From Bacteroidia bacterium (GTDB lineage: Bacteria; Bacteroidota; Bacteroidia; Chitinophagales; UBA2359), in NCBI GenBank assembly GCA_030427245.1, contig JAUHXA010000049.1, positions 1 to 56,586 on the forward strand: a stretch of 56,586 nt of DNA, given 5' to 3'. Shown piece after piece: positions 35,975 through 43,339 of this stretch. The notes beneath the pieces were generated by a model that saw only the letters and a program-made list of their open reading frames with translations, ran no database searches and was not told where the DNA came from. The position numbers and the translations under genes are program-made. Within the stretch, counting starts at the first letter, position 1, and every line of letters starts with the position of its first letter.

Positions 35975-37462
35975 ATGAAAGCTCTACTAACCTTTCTTTT
36001 AGTCTCTTTTAGCCTCACAACAACCGCAATCAATTGGGAACCCTTTCCCTACAATCAAAAAAACTATTTCTACTTCGAAACACAAACCGAAAAAATCATT
36101 TCTCCTTATTATGTTGATTTTGAAGAAAGTGATGGCAATTTCACGATACAATATCCTCTCCGAAAAATGATTGAAACCGCAACTGATGGATGTTATGAAG
36201 AAATAGACCTACGGTTGGACTCTTTAAAAAAAGGAGTAGTTGCTTTCAATATCCAAATTCTAAAAAAAGAGGGCTATTTTGGCTATGTTTACCAAACAGA
36301 TGAAGCCACAGATACCATTCATTTTTATCCCGAAGTCAATGTTGGAGAAAGCTGGGAAGTCATTGGAGAAGGTTTTGAAGAAAGTCCTTTTCTTTATACA
36401 CGCTTCAAAATCAAATGTATCAACGCAGAATCAAAATTGGTTTTGTCAGTAATGGACAGTGTCAAAACGTTTGAAATTGAAGCCTATAATGAGGAAATCC
36501 CTGGAAAAAGTGCTTCAAAAAAGTTCTCTATTCAACTCAGCAAAAATCATGGGTTGGTGGAATGGTATGGTTTCAACGAATGGGTATTCTCTGACCTGAC
36601 TACCCAAATTACTTTGGCAGGATGGGAAGATGAAAATGGGAATGTGACGGGTGAAACGCTGCCGAAAGTAAGTGATTTTTTTCCTTATACAGCAGGAAAT
36701 GTATTGAAGTGGAAAGAAATAACTTTGGTCAATGGACAATATCCTACTATTTACCATACCGATTCTATTCTGTCGGTTATGAATACCGCTATGGGCATTC
36801 AGTATAATTATAACCGAATAAGTACAATCATTTTTCCAGATACAACTCTCTACGAATCAAAGTTGAATGAAGAAATCAACTATGAGTTCTTTCCTCAACA
36901 TTTCATAGACCTGCACTACTGGAATTTGGGTATCGATTTTACCTCCTCTTATTTTTATGCCCTCAATCTCAAACGTATAGAAATCGAAAACGCACCTACG
37001 GATTACCTCTTGAACCTTTCTTACCAAAGAACACTCTTCGGCAACTGTAGCACCTTATACTTAGAAGATTTAGGCACTGAAAAGCATACTTTTAGTACAG
37101 CATTTGGGGTAGAGCTGGATAGCGAAACAGGTGGTTTTTTTGATGGTTTCTTTCATTCCATCGAGCTGCAAGAAGCCTTTGTAGGAGAAGATTATTTCAC
37201 TCCTATTGAATACATTGTATCACCGGCGTTGAACCTGACCTTGTCTCCCAACCCCTCAAAAGATTATGTGACCATCCAAAAAAATAGCCCCTTCAATACT
37301 TCTATTCACCTCCAAATCTTCAACTTGCGAGGTCAAGTGATTTTCAAAACTTATTTTGACCACAGCACAGAAGTCAATCTATTGGATTTTCCTAAAGGGG
37401 TCTATTTGGTGAAGGCATCGAATGGCAAACACCAATGGACAGAAAAAATAGTGAAATACTAA
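35975..37462 (+). CDS. T9SS-secreted protein of unknown function
   Basis: A 495-residue protein with a signal peptide (MKALLTFLLVSFSLTTTA). The last 75 residues are a type A T9SS sorting domain: LTLSPNPSKDYVTIQ, then LQIFNLRGQVIF, DFPKGVYLVKAS and QWTEKIVKY. It should therefore cross the outer membrane by type IX secretion and be released or anchored. The 400-residue cargo part is beta-rich, with no recognised catalytic motif. It starts a run of three plus-strand genes, 17 bp before the CPBP protease gene. Confidence 0.8.
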   Translation: MKALLTFLLVSFSLTTTAINWEPFPYNQKNYFYFETQTEKIISPYYVDFEESDGNFTIQYPLRKMIETATDGCYEEIDLRLDSLKKGVVAFNIQILKKEGYFGYVYQTDEATDTIHFYPEVNVGESWEVIGEGFEESPFLYTRFKIKCINAESKLVLSVMDSVKTFEIEAYNEEIPGKSASKKFSIQLSKNHGLVEWYGFNEWVFSDLTTQITLAGWEDENGNVTGETLPKVSDFFPYTAGNVLKWKEITLVNGQYPTIYHTDSILSVMNTAMGIQYNYNRISTIIFPDTTLYESKLNEEINYEFFPQHFIDLHYWNLGIDFTSSYFYALNLKRIEIENAPTDYLLNLSYQRTLFGNCSTLYLEDLGTEKHTFSTAFGVELDSETGGFFDGFFHSIELQEAFVGEDYFTPIEYIVSPALNLTLSPNPSKDYVTIQKNSPFNTSIHLQIFNLRGQVIFKTYFDHSTEVNLLDFPKGVYLVKASNGKHQWTEKIVKY

Positions 37463-37478
37463 GCCAATCTAAAAAACT

Positions 37479-38057
37479 ATGCAAATCAACCGAAAAGTTT
37501 TTGTTCTTTTAGCCATTCTAAGTCTATTGGTGATGTCACCCATAGGCTTACTTTTAGTAGTTTTTCTGCAAGAAGAATCCATTTTCAACCTCTTTTTTTC
37601 GTCCAGTTTTTCGTGGGTTTCTCAAATCTTAATCGGAACTGCTTATGGCATTGCAGGGGCTGCAATCGCTACGACACTATTGAAGATTTCCTTTTTTGCG
37701 CCTGTCAAATCTTTCTTTGCCGAAACCTTCAAAGACATTCAACTCACCATTTTTGACATTTTGTTGATTTCTATTTATGTCGGTATTGGAGAAGAATTAT
37801 TGTTTCGGGCGGGAATTCAGCCATTTTTAGGCGTTTGGATAACCTCTGTCGTTTTTGTATTGGCGCATGGCATGTACCTCGACCCTCGCAGACTGCCGTT
37901 TTTTGTGGTGGGGCTGTTTATGATTCTGCTGAGTTCTGGTTTGGGTTACTTATTTGAATATGTGAGCATTACTTCCGCTATTGTAGCTCACGCCGTTTAC
38001 GATGCCATTAGCTTGGGAGTGATTGTGAAGGAAAACACAACCCAACTTTCTGAATAG
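37479..38057 (+). CDS. CPBP family intramembrane metalloprotease
   Basis: A 192-residue polytopic membrane protein of the CAAX protease / bacteriocin-processing (Abi) family. The three motifs are present: GIGEELLFRAG (EExxxR), VLAHGMYL, and IVAHAVYDAIS. These form the metal site in Rce1-type proteases. The substrate is unknown. It lies 17 bp after the T9SS protein gene and 42 bp before the dikinase-like gene, consistent with one operon. Confidence 0.87.
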   Translation: MQINRKVFVLLAILSLLVMSPIGLLLVVFLQEESIFNLFFSSSFSWVSQILIGTAYGIAGAAIATTLLKISFFAPVKSFFAETFKDIQLTIFDILLISIYVGIGEELLFRAGIQPFLGVWITSVVFVLAHGMYLDPRRLPFFVVGLFMILLSSGLGYLFEYVSITSAIVAHAVYDAISLGVIVKENTTQLSE

Positions 38058-38099: not shown

Positions 38100-40547
38100 A
38101 TGAAAAACCTTACCCAAAAATTCCTTTTTTTATTTTTTATTCCTCTGATTACAAACGCACAAGCCATCTACAATGGTCACCTTCAAGATGTACTTACCCA
38201 AAAACCCCTTTCCAATGTAAAAATCCAACTGCTCAACAGCGAAATTGAAGCAACAAGTAATGTCTATGGAGATTTCTTGATAAAAAACACCGAAAAAGAC
38301 AGCATCTCCCATCCCTTCAATAGCTATCGTTTCTTCAACAATTCTTTGATTTGGAGTGAAGAAGTATCGGATATTTCTTTGGAGATTTTTTCGATGACGG
38401 GGCAATTGGTAGATGGTCAGCCGAATCTTGGAAACAGTGGCTGTTACCTCTTTCCATATTTTCCTACGGGTGTTTATGTGGTGCGAGTGACGACTGACAA
38501 CAATAGGCAAAGTTTTAGAGCTTTCTCCAATGGGCGGCAAACCATCATTGCAGACCGAGAAGCGATGTTTCACCGTTCTGCTGTTCCTTCAAGATTGGAC
38601 ACTTTGCAGTTCTCCAAAGAAGGCTATTATTCGAGAACGATTCCATTGAAGGGCAGGGATACGCTATTGACAGTTAGTTTGTTGAAAAAAGAAAATACGG
38701 AAGAACTGAACTACTTCAATGAATTGATTGACCCCGTTTCTTTTGAATTGTTGAGCAGTTTGCCTTCAAGGAGTAACGACGGAGGTGTATCTTCTGTGAA
38801 AATCATTTACAATTCGGACAATGGTTTGATGTACTACATGAACACCAAAAAGTATGAATTACACTCCGTTTTTGCGAAGGAACAACTGGGCTTCAAACTA
38901 GGAAACAATGTATTTAATCAAACCCAATACCGAGAACACAAAGACCGCTACCTCTATCCTGCCAACCTCAATTACTATAAAAACTTGGACAAATATGTGC
39001 TGTATCTGGTGACTGCAAATGAGATGCCTTGCGAGAAAATAAAAACCTTACACGACAAAATACTGGCGACTTCTTACTTGAAGGACAAGCTGTTTTTGTA
39101 CGACAATCGTCCAGAATTTGCAGACTGCAATGTGCCGAAAATTACGCCTGAAGAACTCTACAAAGGACAGAATTACCAAGCCTTGAATTTGGCGGAGAAC
39201 TATGGCTATTTGAACAAGGTAGAATTGAAGGACTTAGAAGACACCTATTTGGGGCGGCACGATATTGTTTTGCTCAATGGGATTCCCAATGATGTCTCGG
39301 TTGTTGCAGGGATTATTACTACCGAATTTCAAACGCCTTTGAGTCACATCAATGTATTGAGTCACAATCGGGGAACGCCCAATATGGCTTTGCGGGATGG
39401 ATGGGAAAACGAAAAGGTGAATGCACTTTTGGGGGAATTGGTCTATCTCAAAGTACGGTCTGATTCTTTTGAGATGAGGAAGGCGACATTGCAGGAAGCG
39501 ACTGTTTTCTGGGAGCAGAACGAACCGAATGAGGTGATTGTCTTGGAGAAAAATACGGAAGTGCAAGGTTTGGTGGATTTGGAAGAAGCCGATTATAGTT
39601 ATGTGGACATCATTGGAGGCAAAGCGGCGAATTTTGCGGAAATACTGAATGTTTCCTATCAAGGGAAACCCATTCCTACGCCTGAATCTTCTTTTGCGAT
39701 TCCCTTTTACTACTACGAGCAGCACCTCAAAAGTGCGGGGTTGGAGGTGTTCATTGAGGAAATGCTGCAAGATGCCGATTTCCTTCAATATCCTGCTGTC
39801 CGAAAAGCCCGATTGGAAGACCTGCAAGACCGCATTGAAGACCATCCTTTGAATCCCGAATTGACCGAGTTGGTGCGAACGGAAATCAAAGACTTTGCAG
39901 ATTTCCCTTCTTTTCGTTTTCGCTCTTCAACGAATGCCGAAGACTTGGAAGATTTTTCGGGTGCGGGTCTGTACAGTTCCTATTCTGCCAAGAAAAACGA
40001 CCCCAAAAAAACGATTGACCGAAGAATCAAAAAGGTCTGGGCGAGCTTGTGGAATTGGCGGGCATTTGAGGAACGCAGCTACTACAAAATCGACCATACT
40101 TCTTGTGCAATGGGGATTTTGGTGCATCGCTCGTTTCCCGATGAAGATGCGAATGGTGTATTGATTACCAAAAACTTATACAACTCTAATCCTGGATTTA
40201 TCATCAATGTGCAGTACAAGGAATACAGCATTGTGTTTCCCGAACCTGGGATTTTGCACGACCAAATCATGCTGATGCTTTGGTCAATTGTGCCTGGTCA
40301 AGATTTTATGATTGAATACCTGACTTTCTCCAATGTTCCCGAACTGAATGGCGAAACGGTGATGACGGATGCCGAAATCATGGAATTGGGGGCGTATAGT
40401 TTGGCGGTGAAGCGGCATTTTTTCCGCAATGTTCCGCACAACTGCAATTGTACGGAGCAGAATTTTGGTTTGGATATTGAGTTTAAGGTGGATTCGGATG
40501 TGAGGGATAGGAAGGTTTATTTAAAGCAGGGGAGGTTTTATAGGTGA
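38100..40547 (+). CDS. Secreted glucan-water-dikinase-like protein (phosphohistidine + ATP-grasp domains)
   Basis: An 815-residue protein with a signal peptide (FLFLFFIPLITNAQA). Residues 23-75 resemble a carboxypeptidase regulatory-like beta domain. Residues 90-150 resemble a T9SS sorting domain (LEIFSMTGQLV, FPTGVYVVRVTTDN). A phosphohistidine domain has TPLSHINVLSHNRGTP with the candidate His416. A PPDK-type ATP-grasp domain follows: IGGKAANFAEIL (about 505), RFRSSTNAEDLEDFSGAG (606), KKVWASLWNWRAFEERSY (643) and KVYLKQGRFY at the end. The order His domain then ATP-grasp is that of plant glucan/phosphoglucan water dikinases; PPDK and PEP synthase have the reverse order and a TIM barrel, absent here. 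The substrate is unknown. Confidence 0.75.
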   Translation: MKNLTQKFLFLFFIPLITNAQAIYNGHLQDVLTQKPLSNVKIQLLNSEIEATSNVYGDFLIKNTEKDSISHPFNSYRFFNNSLIWSEEVSDISLEIFSMTGQLVDGQPNLGNSGCYLFPYFPTGVYVVRVTTDNNRQSFRAFSNGRQTIIADREAMFHRSAVPSRLDTLQFSKEGYYSRTIPLKGRDTLLTVSLLKKENTEELNYFNELIDPVSFELLSSLPSRSNDGGVSSVKIIYNSDNGLMYYMNTKKYELHSVFAKEQLGFKLGNNVFNQTQYREHKDRYLYPANLNYYKNLDKYVLYLVTANEMPCEKIKTLHDKILATSYLKDKLFLYDNRPEFADCNVPKITPEELYKGQNYQALNLAENYGYLNKVELKDLEDTYLGRHDIVLLNGIPNDVSVVAGIITTEFQTPLSHINVLSHNRGTPNMALRDGWENEKVNALLGELVYLKVRSDSFEMRKATLQEATVFWEQNEPNEVIVLEKNTEVQGLVDLEEADYSYVDIIGGKAANFAEILNVSYQGKPIPTPESSFAIPFYYYEQHLKSAGLEVFIEEMLQDADFLQYPAVRKARLEDLQDRIEDHPLNPELTELVRTEIKDFADFPSFRFRSSTNAEDLEDFSGAGLYSSYSAKKNDPKKTIDRRIKKVWASLWNWRAFEERSYYKIDHTSCAMGILVHRSFPDEDANGVLITKNLYNSNPGFIINVQYKEYSIVFPEPGILHDQIMLMLWSIVPGQDFMIEYLTFSNVPELNGETVMTDAEIMELGAYSLAVKRHFFRNVPHNCNCTEQNFGLDIEFKVDSDVRDRKVYLKQGRFYR

Positions 40548-40610: not shown

Positions 40611-41813
40611 TTATACAAGGTCGTTCCAAATATGTCCTTGTATTAGTCCTCTCAACCTATCAAATAATGAAATAGCAGATAAATTCACATCAACTACCTT
40701 TGAAAAGTCTCTGTCTTTTCCTCGAATGCCAAGTCTATTAAAGGTTTCAGTAAGCAAATTTGCTGTCTCAAGTTGAATATTAAGTCCTTCTCTTGTTGCT
40801 TCATATGAGGCCTTAACTGAATTTTGGGTTTGAATTTTTAAGCATTGTATGTAGTGATTAAAAGAGTTACTTTCTGGATAGTTTACTGTTGAAGGCTGAG
40901 CACCAAGAAATAAAGTGTCTGAGTAAGGTGAATAAAAATCCTTAGTTGTTTCTAATCTTTCTAAAATCCCAACTCTTTTAGCCATGTCTAAAAAAGGAAT
41001 CTGATACTCTGACAAAGCCTGTGGACAATAGTACCATTTTGAACGACGACTATTACTTTCTTCTGAGGCTCTAAATTTTTCCTTATTGAAACTTCTAACA
41101 TTTAACCACTTTCCTGATGCAATAGCATCAATTTTAGCCAAAGCTAAACATAACAACTGGTGATTAGCATAACCTACTATAATCTTTTTATTTTGATGTT
41201 TAAGACCTGCAACTAAATCTAATAAATTAAGTAACCAATTTGGGTCTTCAACAAGATAGTTTTTATTAGGGGGTTCAGGTACAATATAATAACCACTAAC
41301 ATTCCAATTTTCGACATATTCTAGTAAAAGGTGAATTTGCTCTTCAGAACTTAAAACTTCGTGGGAAAGACATAAAGTACAATATAACTCATCGTGAACG
41401 TTTAAACTTAACGCTTCATTAACTACAAGACTATTAAAATTATACCAATCTTCATCTATGCTTGAAGAAAACAGACTAGGTAAAATAAAAAATTTTGATT
41501 CGATATAGTCATTATACTGGTTTTTTAATAAAGTCAGCATATTTCTAACACCTACACTATTAAAAATAGATGTCTGATAATTATCAGGCCAAAACGAGTG
41601 AGAAATTAATCTTTCATGGCTTGCTCGAGGTATATAGAATTGAGGATCTAATACTACATTACCATTTAATTCATTAATCTCAGAAGAAAATCGATAAATT
41701 TGAGTCTGCGTTAAGTCTCGAGGACTTAAAATAACTGTTCCTCCTCCCCATTTTTCTATTAAATGTTTGGACATTTTCATCATCCCATATCCAAATTGCA
41801 AGTATAGTTCCAT
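40611..41813 (-). CDS. Unknown 400-residue protein, third gene of nuclease-kinase operon
   Basis: I do not recognise the family. The N-terminal part alternates strands and helices (GGGTVILSPRDLTQTQIYRF, NVVLDPQFYIPRASHERLIS). Later come a strand with SGYYIVPEPPNK and KKIIVGYANHQLLCLALAK followed by DAIASGKWLNVRSF. This reads like a TIM barrel of the tRNA-guanine transglycosylase type, but only by eye. The C-terminal 100 residues are helical. No signal peptide is seen. The start ATG is 1 bp after the kinase stop codon (TAATATG), so translation is coupled. It is probably the effector or a partner of the kinase and nuclease encoded upstream. Confidence 0.7.
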   Translation of the reverse strand: MELYLQFGYGMMKMSKHLIEKWGGGTVILSPRDLTQTQIYRFSSEINELNGNVVLDPQFYIPRASHERLISHSFWPDNYQTSIFNSVGVRNMLTLLKNQYNDYIESKFFILPSLFSSSIDEDWYNFNSLVVNEALSLNVHDELYCTLCLSHEVLSSEEQIHLLLEYVENWNVSGYYIVPEPPNKNYLVEDPNWLLNLLDLVAGLKHQNKKIIVGYANHQLLCLALAKIDAIASGKWLNVRSFNKEKFRASEESNSRRSKWYYCPQALSEYQIPFLDMAKRVGILERLETTKDFYSPYSDTLFLGAQPSTVNYPESNSFNHYIQCLKIQTQNSVKASYEATREGLNIQLETANLLTETFNRLGIRGKDRDFSKVVDVNLSAISLFDRLRGLIQGHIWNDLV

Positions 41814-41814
41814 A

Positions 41815-42642
41815 TTAATTCAGTGTTAATGTACTTTTCAGTGTTTCAAAAATCAGCATTGCTTGCCTAGCTGTTTTAGGTCTACGATTTCGTCGATGGT
41901 CACCAAGCAAGCTAATAAAAGTTGAAAGTTGATATTGGTTATCCCCTTTAATTCTTAGAGGAGGAACAGAGTTATTCTCCAGTTTTTTTATAATTCTAAA
42001 TACATCATTATTAGTTTCATGTACATAATAATTTATGCCCTTTAACATTTCATAACATACGACTCCAATAGAGAATAGGTCAGCACGAATATCTATTTCA
42101 TTTTTAATATTCCTAAATTGTTCAGAAGATGCATACCCCAAAGTAAAAACTCCATATGGACTATTTGTTTCGGTTATAGATTTTAAATCTAAATGTCTAA
42201 CAATTCCAAAATCAAGCAACCAAAAATCCCCTTCGGTATCAAGAATAATGTTATCAGGCTTGATATCCCGATGTACTAATCTGTTTTTTTCTGATTCTAC
42301 AGCAATTTTCAGCATAATCTCAAGAAAATGGACAATTTCTTTAATTGAAAAAATTCTACCTGTGGATAAAACTGTACGAAGGTCATTTCCTGCTATATAT
42401 TCTTCAAGAATCCATATAAACTGTGGGTTCTTATGTTCGCAATTATGTGCAAATATTTTCGGAATATACTCTGAATTCAAAAGAGAAACAGCCTTTACTT
42501 CTCTTTTGGTGCGCTCAAAACTATCTGACGTTGAAAATATTTTTTTAAAAACGACCTTACCATAATCTGGATGTTCTGCCGTATATACTTCCTTTTGTCC
42601 TCCCTTTTTTAAAAGTCTTTTTTTTATTAATGAGTTAAGCAT
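41815..42642 (-). CDS. Serine/threonine protein kinase (Hanks type)
   Basis: 275 residues from ATG 42642, 7 bp after the preceding stop; an upstream start would overlap the nuclease gene. All kinase landmarks are present: Gly-rich loop KKGGQKEVY (12-20), Lys33 in VVFKK, alpha-C Glu48, HRDIKPDN (124-131), DFG (144-146), and APE-like YASSEQF. The activation segment is short. There is no membrane helix or sensor domain, so it is cytosolic and consists of the kinase domain alone. The middle position in a coupled three-gene operon suggests it phosphorylates or is regulated by its neighbours. Confidence 0.92.
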   Translation of the reverse strand: MLNSLIKKRLLKKGGQKEVYTAEHPDYGKVVFKKIFSTSDSFERTKREVKAVSLLNSEYIPKIFAHNCEHKNPQFIWILEEYIAGNDLRTVLSTGRIFSIKEIVHFLEIMLKIAVESEKNRLVHRDIKPDNIILDTEGDFWLLDFGIVRHLDLKSITETNSPYGVFTLGYASSEQFRNIKNEIDIRADLFSIGVVCYEMLKGINYYVHETNNDVFRIIKKLENNSVPPLRIKGDNQYQLSTFISLLGDHRRNRRPKTARQAMLIFETLKSTLTLN

Positions 42643-42649
42643 ATTAACT

Positions 42650-43339
42650 TTAATTAGTTGTTTTAATAAATGTTTTACCAATATATTCATTTAATATCCA
42701 TGAGAAATAAGATTTAGGAAGTTGCCCTTTACGTGCCCTTTTTTTGAATATAACTTTATTTTTACTATGAGATATTACTCCTATATTACCTTCAAGGAAA
42801 GAAGATTCTATACGGGGAATTGTATTATTAGGTAAGAGTATGTAAGAATGTGAAGAAAAGTTTTCGTTGAGTTTAGCTTGTTTTATAGCTGTTTTCCAAT
42901 TATTAATTTTAGCTTCAATAGTTATAATCTGCCTAATGAAAAATTTTGATTCAAAATCTTTTATGATTACTCTTGATCCCTTTATCATTATAAGATCTGC
43001 TGCCATAAGTTTAATTAGACTTTTTTCAATTAACTTATCTACATATCCTAACTGAACAGATAGCGTGTTCTTCAAAACTCCTCTTTTTTTGAAAGAAGAA
43101 ATATAGTGAATTATTTTAATGTCAATTAAAGTCAAATTTTCTCGTTCAAGACACCATTCACATGAAAGTGATTTATCCCAAGCAATAATTAGAATATCTG
43201 GTATACCTATTTCAGCATACACCTCTCTTAAAATAGTGTACTCTAATTTTTCATTAAATGTGAATTTTTTAAACTGTAGAAAAGACTCAATCAATTCTAA
43301 TTCAGGACCTTCTTTTTGTTTTCTAGTTCGAAGTTTCAT
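42650..43339 (-). CDS. PD-(D/E)XK nuclease-like protein with internal winged helix
   Basis: A 229-residue protein. A restriction-fold signature can be read as E39, then GIPDILIIAW with D48, then IEAKINNWKTAIKQA with E142-x-K144 and Q154. Residues 65-130 between the two parts look like a winged-helix insert (RGVLKNTLSVQLGYVDKLIE). The segment SSHSYILLPNN after the motif is typical of this fold. The family is not one I can name. It is first gene of the three-gene operon. Its sequence is clearly AT-rich. Nuclease activity is inferred from the motif only. Confidence 0.65.
   Translation of the reverse strand: MKLRTRKQKEGPELELIESFLQFKKFTFNEKLEYTILREVYAEIGIPDILIIAWDKSLSCEWCLERENLTLIDIKIIHYISSFKKRGVLKNTLSVQLGYVDKLIEKSLIKLMAADLIMIKGSRVIIKDFESKFFIRQIITIEAKINNWKTAIKQAKLNENFSSHSYILLPNNTIPRIESSFLEGNIGVISHSKNKVIFKKRARKGQLPKSYFSWILNEYIGKTFIKTTN

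Follow-up and report, generated by a model that had tools for sequence, protein, structure and literature searches.

Phosphoenolpyruvate (PEP) synthase (PEPS) and pyruvate phosphate dikinase (PPDK) are cytosolic enzymes whose chains run from an ATP-grasp domain through a phosphohistidine domain to a TIM barrel, and they follow the same ATP-grasp and swivel-histidine mechanism as rifampin phosphotransferase (RPH). In the glucan water dikinases (GWDs) the histidine domain is placed ahead of the ATP-grasp domain, and the carbohydrate- or starch-binding domains of GWD and phosphoglucan water dikinase (PWD) are the carbohydrate-binding modules (CBMs) CBM45 or CBM20. To our knowledge, the known dikinases (PEPS, PPDK, RPH, the phenol kinases and GWD) act in the cytosol or in the plastid. 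The gene described here lies in a window of 56,586 nucleotides, which is the whole stretch of DNA analyzed (contig JAUHXA010000049.1 of a Bacteroidia bacterium of the Chitinophagales), and encodes a dikinase-like protein of 815 amino acids (aa) with a predicted export signal. In RPH, as described in excerpts of PMC4844700, ATP is bound by the ATP-grasp domain, the β-phosphate is accepted by the histidine of the swivel domain while the γ-phosphate is released, and the swivel domain then transports the phosphate to an acceptor site some distance away; mutation of Lys22, Arg117 or Thr136 abolished resistance, and Glu297 was dispensable. The phenol dikinases HpeHI, CreHI and PpsAB carry the acceptor domain and the histidine on one chain and the ATP-grasp domain on the other, according to excerpts of PMC12167813, and their chains, if fused, would have the same order as the protein described here. 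High-resolution GWD structures are lacking according to part of a 2026 review (PMC12892837).

Based on its domain composition, an alignment of relatives and a structural model, the protein is interpreted as an exported and catalytically competent dikinase, a prediction to which a probability of about 0.62 is assigned. The features that carry this interpretation are as follows.

38100..40547, + strand: open reading frame (ORF) of the putative exported dikinase-like protein, 815 aa (ORF call; Pfam; AlphaFold2 model from the 69-sequence alignment with a mean predicted local distance difference test (pLDDT) score of 91.1 and a predicted template modeling (pTM) score of 0.83).
38100..38165, + strand: predicted Sec-type signal peptide, residues ~1-22 (sequence read by eye; relatives by a crude script).
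38709..39155, + strand: conserved N-domain, residues 204-352, 149 aa (69-sequence alignment; separate model with pLDDT 95.1).
39156..39545, + strand: phosphohistidine (swivel) domain, residues 353-482 (match to 5fbu, Z 11.4; GWD1_pHisD matches in isolated domains).
39345..39347, + strand: codon of the presumed catalytic His416 (69/69 identity; alignment to the TSH/TCH histidine of PEP synthases).
39558..40544, + strand: ATP-grasp domain, residues 487-815 (PPDK_N, E 7.8e-24; structural matches).
39621..39623, + strand: Lys508, counterpart of RPH Lys22 (alignment to PEPS and RPH; 69/69).
39921..39923, + strand: Arg608, counterpart of RPH Arg117 (alignment to PEPS and RPH; 69/69).
39978..39980, + strand: Ser627, counterpart of RPH Thr136 (alignment read by eye; Ser in 69/69).
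40479..40529, + strand: Glu794 and Gln810 in the strand pair DIEFK...YLKQ (69/69; aligned to DIEW...LYIxQ of two PEP synthases).

The domain order given in a preliminary description of this gene, in which a swivel domain with His416 precedes an ATP-grasp domain of the PPDK/PEPS type and a TIM barrel is lacking, was confirmed by Pfam and by the model. PPDK_N matched residues 503-775, the His416 motif LSHINVLSHNRGTP lies N-terminal to this match, and the ORF terminates straight after the ATP-grasp domain. Neither the PEP-binding TIM barrel (PF02896) nor PEP-utilizers matched the whole protein at E ≤ 1, and the barrel was present in five of six comparison proteins, the sixth (L026) being a cut RPH-like protein. 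In the model, the ATP-grasp domain matched 5hv1 (Z 29.4), 2ols (Z 28.9) and 1dik (Z 20.9), and residues 355-462 aligned to the RPH swivel domain (5fbu, residues 753-867) with Z 11.4 and a root-mean-square deviation of 2.5 over 100 residues. The protein therefore shares its ATP-grasp fold with PEPS and PPDK (Z 28.9 and 20.9), whose order is instead ATP-grasp, His and TIM barrel. It also shares both folds and the key ATP residues (Thr136 corresponding to Ser627) with RPH, in which the ATP-grasp domain is followed by the rifampin (RIF)-binding domain and a C-terminal His domain.

Relatives were taken from a scan of genome contigs, and all counts over 80 loci refer to the best 80 of at least 563 confirmed relatives. 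By label these loci comprise 35 Bacteroidota, 26 Myxococcota, 9 Pseudomonadota, 6 Fibrobacterota, 1 Planctomycetota and 3 unassigned records; one record titled as a Klebsiella pneumoniae metagenome-assembled genome (L066) carries a close family member, and its label is probably wrong. The core alignment consists of 69 sequences, that is, the window protein and 68 of the 80 loci. Loci with an internal stop (L097, L098), a cut N-terminus (L048, L070, L103) or a cut C-terminus (L087), near copies (L057, L062) and unclear or long N-termini (L084, L091, L104) were omitted, as was L071, the sole locus scored as signal-less, which by eye has a lipobox-like LTAGC. The matching region of L097, like that of L098, is interrupted by a single internal stop codon, through either gene decay or a sequencing error.

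In this alignment, His416, Lys508, Arg608, Ser627, Asp792, Glu794, Gln810 and Arg812 are invariant (69/69). Thirteen more distant proteins (two from Streptomyces, eight of a sister group and three of a group of ~980 aa) all retain His416, Lys508, Arg608, Glu794 and Gln810, and the 980-aa group has Thr at position 627. By alignment, the residues for the first half-reaction of RPH are thus all present and invariant in the family, with Ser in place of Thr; loss of key ATP-grasp residues, named in the preliminary description as an observation that would refute its reading, was not seen at the positions checked.

The export signal claimed previously was borne out by reading the N-terminus, MKNLTQKFLFLFFIPLITNAQA, by eye as a Sec signal peptide. 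A crude script called a signal-like N-terminus in 76 of the 80 loci (49 lipobox-like, 27 without a lipobox) and none in one; three were cut at the contig end. The lipobox column of the alignment is Cys in 43/69 sequences. Two N-terminal Cys columns are both occupied in 41 of the 69, singly in one and in neither position in 27; Cys311 and Cys343 occur together in 15, are both absent in 54 and never occur singly; and Cys782 and Cys784 are both present in 9 and both absent in 60. Such co-occurring pairs are what an oxidizing compartment would lead one to expect and lend independent support to export, with the reservation that the counts are not independent events because the sequences share ancestry. 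In the sister group, a C-terminal tail resembling a sorting domain of the type IX secretion system (T9SS) was recognized by eye in all seven fully fetched proteins (six of 1251-1412 aa and one, L140, of 695 aa), and six of the seven have a signal-like start. For Por_Secre_tail, L015 exceeds the Pfam cut-off and L014 falls short of it. CARDB was found in four of six scanned sister-group proteins (over the cut-off in three) and SprB repeats in three of six. Because signal or lipobox N-termini and T9SS-like tails occur among relatives, a single kind of catalytic core appears to be sent out of the cytosol along three predicted routes, via Sec, as a lipoprotein or via T9SS.

A tree of 61 ATP-grasp domains, which took 30 of the 69 family sequences and contained no GWD sequence, joined the family and the sister group (the long forms) in one clade (99/97) and the PEP synthases in another (99/98). 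Placement firmly within the PEP synthases, which had been named as refuting, was not seen in this GWD-free tree, in which the window protein is separate from PEPS. Beside PEPS, with 94/93, stand two rows classed as RPH-like, L128 because it exceeds the Rph cut-off and L026 from its place in the tree. The family by itself is weakly held together (75/83), and the Streptomyces and 980-aa rows have no firm place.

In the proposed mechanism, the ATP-grasp domain would bind ATP outside the cytosol, and His416 on the swivel domain would receive the β-phosphate, with loss of the γ-phosphate as inorganic phosphate and with AMP remaining. The swivel domain could then swing to the acceptor site, most likely the N-domain (residues 204-352), and phosphorylate an acceptor there. 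The N-domain is a natural candidate because it is the sole other conserved domain in common with the Streptomyces relatives, and its His255 and Tyr277 are invariant (69/69). To judge from the conserved residues, this reaction may well take place; its acceptor would presumably be located at the cell surface, in the periplasm or outside the cell, with a glycan and a small molecule each considered tentatively. Lysed neighbors or prey could be one source of extracellular ATP.

Several points weigh against this interpretation. ATP is scarce outside cells, and the activity, location and substrate are predictions from sequence. The acceptor role of the N-domain is a conjecture; its profile finds the Streptomyces relatives (E 3.4e-11 and 1.4e-9) and just two of the eight sister-group proteins and none of the three in the 980-aa group. 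The signal calls come from our own hydrophobicity script rather than a trained predictor, and the script wrongly assigned a lipobox to at least L040 and L047. In the sister group, L140 has no signal-like start in its open frame, and Pfam detects no sorting domain in L022 (660 aa). In the Streptomyces relatives no signal is apparent, yet both the N-domain and the catalytic residues are retained, from which it follows that export is not required for the chemistry.

One possible but doubtful alternative is that the protein is a true extracellular counterpart of GWD, phosphorylating a polysaccharide for degradation or for modification of the cell's own surface. Like the GWD and PWD enzymes of plants and algae, it has the histidine domain ahead of the ATP-grasp domain and no TIM barrel, and the best Pfam likeness of its isolated His domain is to GWD. 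When the His domains were scanned in isolation (E ≤ 10), GWD1_pHisD (PF22973) was found in 47/69 (best 3.3e-6) and PEP-utilizers in 6/69 (best 0.0031), whereas ten isolated control domains of equal length (nine PEPS and one PPDK, with RPH unrepresented) gave PEP-utilizers in 10/10 (7e-24 to 9e-30) and GWD1_pHisD in 0/10; six whole comparison proteins gave PEP-utilizers in five and GWD1_pHisD in none, with the cut RPH-like L026 lacking the His domain. The comparison somewhat favors GWD1_pHisD, since this model is longer (115 vs 72 positions for PEP-utilizers). The likeness is visible only with the His domain scanned alone, because scans of 16 whole cores, including three from the 980-aa group, were near even (PEP-utilizers 3/16, best 0.0014; GWD1_pHisD 2/16, best 0.07). 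The occurrence of the family in lineages known for polymer degradation or predation is also in keeping with a polysaccharide acceptor. On the other hand, the His domain of the window protein scores 14.3 bits (E 0.03) against GWD1_pHisD, under the curated cut-off of 27, no CBM or other carbohydrate-binding domain is found among the four Pfam families matching the protein at E ≤ 1, and no glycan-degradation family is found among the few recurrent neighbors identified. The protein further differs from GWD and PWD by an export signal instead of a plastid location and by its own N-domain. A search for PF22973, which had no positive control, gave 0/296 Bacteroidota genomes and 0/14 control genomes.

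Two signs on which a GWD assignment had been based were rejected. The KKVWAS segment is not a GWD diagnostic, since KKVWASLWNWRAF in the window protein aligns with VKRCWASLWTARAT at the equivalent position of a PEP synthase and is thus common to PEPS. The order of the His domain before the ATP-grasp domain is no proof either, because HpeH followed by HpeI gives the same order in the excerpts of PMC12167813. The protein is therefore not filed as a GWD: the relation of its isolated His domain, nearer to GWD than to PEPS in Pfam, stands, and membership of the GWD/PWD family is not supported. The earlier term "surface polysaccharide phosphorylase" was also wrong in wording, a kinase being meant.

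Another possible reading, also held tentatively, is a small-molecule phosphotransferase like RPH or HpeHI that acts outside the cell and inactivates antibiotics or traps phenolics or other metabolites. The nearest solved ATP-grasp folds of the model include those of RPH and HpeI, and the succession of N-domain, histidine and ATP-grasp domain equals that of HpeH followed by HpeI, as far as described in PMC12167813. In addition, two Streptomyces relatives (WP_142270066.1 and WP_331760287.1, "PEP/pyruvate-binding domain-containing protein"), which have the same domain order and the same catalytic residues and differ in having no apparent signal peptide, are encoded between genes for an ATP-grasp protein and a major facilitator superfamily (MFS) transporter. 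The N-domain, however, at 149 aa falls far short of the RIF-binding domain in size and has no convincing match among solved structures in searches that do not exclude one, and NCBIfam Rph (NF041857) gives 49.9 bits against a cut-off of 999. HpeHI, CreHI and PpsAB are catabolic enzymes of aromatics, and the N-domain, whose kinship with their acceptor domain would be hypothetical, is much shorter.

An ecto-nucleotidase, in which the phosphohistidine would be discharged to water so that extracellular ATP yields AMP and two phosphates for scavenging, is improbable. It would account for an ATP-using enzyme outside the cell, and RPH variants blocked in the second half-reaction still cleave ATP, according to excerpts of PMC4844700, but plain hydrolysis would call for neither a swivel domain nor a conserved N-domain resembling an acceptor domain. 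More improbable still is a pseudo-enzyme with ligand binding but no catalytic activity. The location where ATP is scarce would suit it, and a non-catalytic binder had been suggested in the preliminary description; such a mere binder is unlikely because His416 and the ATP-site positions checked are invariant in the 69 sequences, five of these residues also being kept in 13/13 distant proteins. An ordinary PEP synthase or PPDK that was misread can practically be dismissed: the protein carries the sole PPDK_N domain found in its genome, where no PPDK was found, but TIGR01418 (PEP_synth) gives 78.7 bits against a cut-off of 739.75, a TIM barrel is absent, and the tree sets the protein apart.

The N-terminal part of the presumed exported dikinase contains further features; the carboxypeptidase-regulatory-like domain with its internal insert, and the conserved N-domain of about 150 aa, had been overlooked previously.

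38163..38693, + strand: carboxypeptidase-regulatory or transthyretin-like domain, residues 22-198 (Pfam CarbopepD_reg_2, E 1.2e-4, below the cut-off; structural matches).
38355..38516, + strand: sorting-domain-like insert (T9SS type A) within the preceding domain, residues 86-139 (TIGR04183; Foldseek).
39030..39128, + strand: Cys311 and Cys343, a likely disulfide pair (co-occurrence in the 69-sequence alignment).

In the model, residues 22-198 match 5aq0_B (Z 13.2) and the NTE of SusC (9hfj, Z 12.7), and Pfam placed CarbopepD_reg_2 at residues 25-68 and Por_Secre_tail at 86-137, both under their cut-offs. The insert scored 26 and 28.6 bits with NCBIfam TIGR04183 (cut-off 23) and matched the NucA sorting domain 8glk_D in Foldseek (E 1.3e-3). 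An internal TIGR04183 match was seen in all ten N-terminal parts scanned (the window protein and nine relatives), at or above the cut-off in seven. Known T9SS sorting signals are C-terminal. SprA is present in the genome that contains the window, as are no fewer than 150 sorting domains, a lower bound from scoring 150 of 446 candidates. T9SS export through this insert was nevertheless rejected for the window protein, the sorting-like stretch not being C-terminal and Sec being the plainer route. For the N-domain, no Pfam family matched more than one of the 69 members, and fold searches gave no convincing PDB match (best Foldseek E 0.34). Its best VIA score (Z 5.4) is to the head domain of polyphosphate kinase 1 (PPK1), with four PPK1 entries at Z 4.2-5.4, and human phosphohistidine phosphatase scores Z 4.3; the stated background is 7-8, so that these matches are leads only.

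Among 119 related genomes, 35 gave a match at E ≤ 0.001, PEP synthases included, and near-full-length relatives with 63-68% identity were found in three. The family is patchy, because just 9 of 395 Bacteroidota genomes, its own included, match at E ≤ 1e-140 (31 at 1e-20). A phage search gave four weak matches, two annotated as ppsA and two unannotated, and 17 pattern matches on viral contigs yielded no confirmed relative. None of the 69 plasmid records retrieved reached 80% coverage of the query; among the 20 matches listed, two from Streptomyces gave relatives, and where the remainder carried a gene name it was mostly ppsA. On these Streptomyces linear plasmids (L120:4511-9338 and L121:4139-8819), genes for the ATP-grasp protein, the signal-less relative and the MFS transporter stand in a row, an arrangement that may perhaps represent a small-molecule pathway. 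A second exported-looking Bacteroidota group is the one of ~980 aa (L023, L024, L025), which has VSHVQLLARN at the phosphohistidine and the order of His before ATP-grasp; no convincing Pfam family was found in the N-terminal 500 residues of the two proteins scanned.

In the window, a gene for a CAAX-type intramembrane protease (37479-38057, + strand) lies 42 bases upstream of the dikinase-like gene, and a gene for a T9SS cargo protein (35975-37462, + strand, 495 aa) lies 16 bases upstream of the protease gene; neither has a homolog in the 80 related loci. On the − strand, three genes at 40611-43339 may form an operon, with a Ser/Thr kinase gene (41815-42690) between 40611-41813 and 42650-43339, whose products gave no convincing family. 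The kinase matches PADLOC models of PD-T4-6 (best 1e-37), which may be generic, and PADLOC gave no match for the dikinase-like protein. At E 1e-8 the neighbors in the window matched nothing in the 80 loci except for a 29% match of this kinase to a large L074 protein. The relatives outside Bacteroidota show a recurrent context. A Cys-rich family that is lipoprotein-like by eye (for example L071:5333-6343, L093:6265-7332 and L105:9421-10395) lies beside the gene in 22/80 loci, of which 14 belong to Myxococcota, and in 16 loci the two genes share a strand and lie within 300 bases of each other; of three members scanned, two had no Pfam family and one had two sub-cut-off matches. A second neighbor family, an SMP-30-like propeller (Pfam, one member scanned), occurs in 13/80 loci, within 300 bases in eight. 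Both families are found in Myxococcota and others and were lipoprotein-like wherever N-termini were read, a context that counts in favor of the proposed exported dikinase. In four Bacteroidota loci (L039, L040, L042, L043) one protein family is found nearby, with a T9SS tail end in the two members scanned.

An exported-looking dikinase branch across several phyla, broader than was previously seen, is well supported. Among the papers listed in searches of open-access literature, no description of such an exported dikinase family appeared, which is no proof of absence from print. What appears to be new here, on sequence grounds, are the exported-looking relatives across phyla, the co-occurring Cys pairs and the T9SS-like tails of the sister group. 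A wider proposal, rather doubtful as a whole, is that these proteins are widespread extracytoplasmic phosphohistidine dikinases with a new acceptor domain, which use the Sec, lipoprotein and T9SS routes and phosphorylate glycans of the envelope, of food polymers or of prey with ATP; they would then be a bacterial, extracellular parallel to starch phosphorylation. The export of an ATP-using family is odd since ATP is normally inside cells, and the intact ATP site and phosphohistidine of these exported-looking proteins prompt the question of the outside acceptor and of the ATP source. If the acceptor is a glycan, ATP-driven extracellular glycan phosphorylation would represent a novel step in how polymers are used or surfaces are modified.

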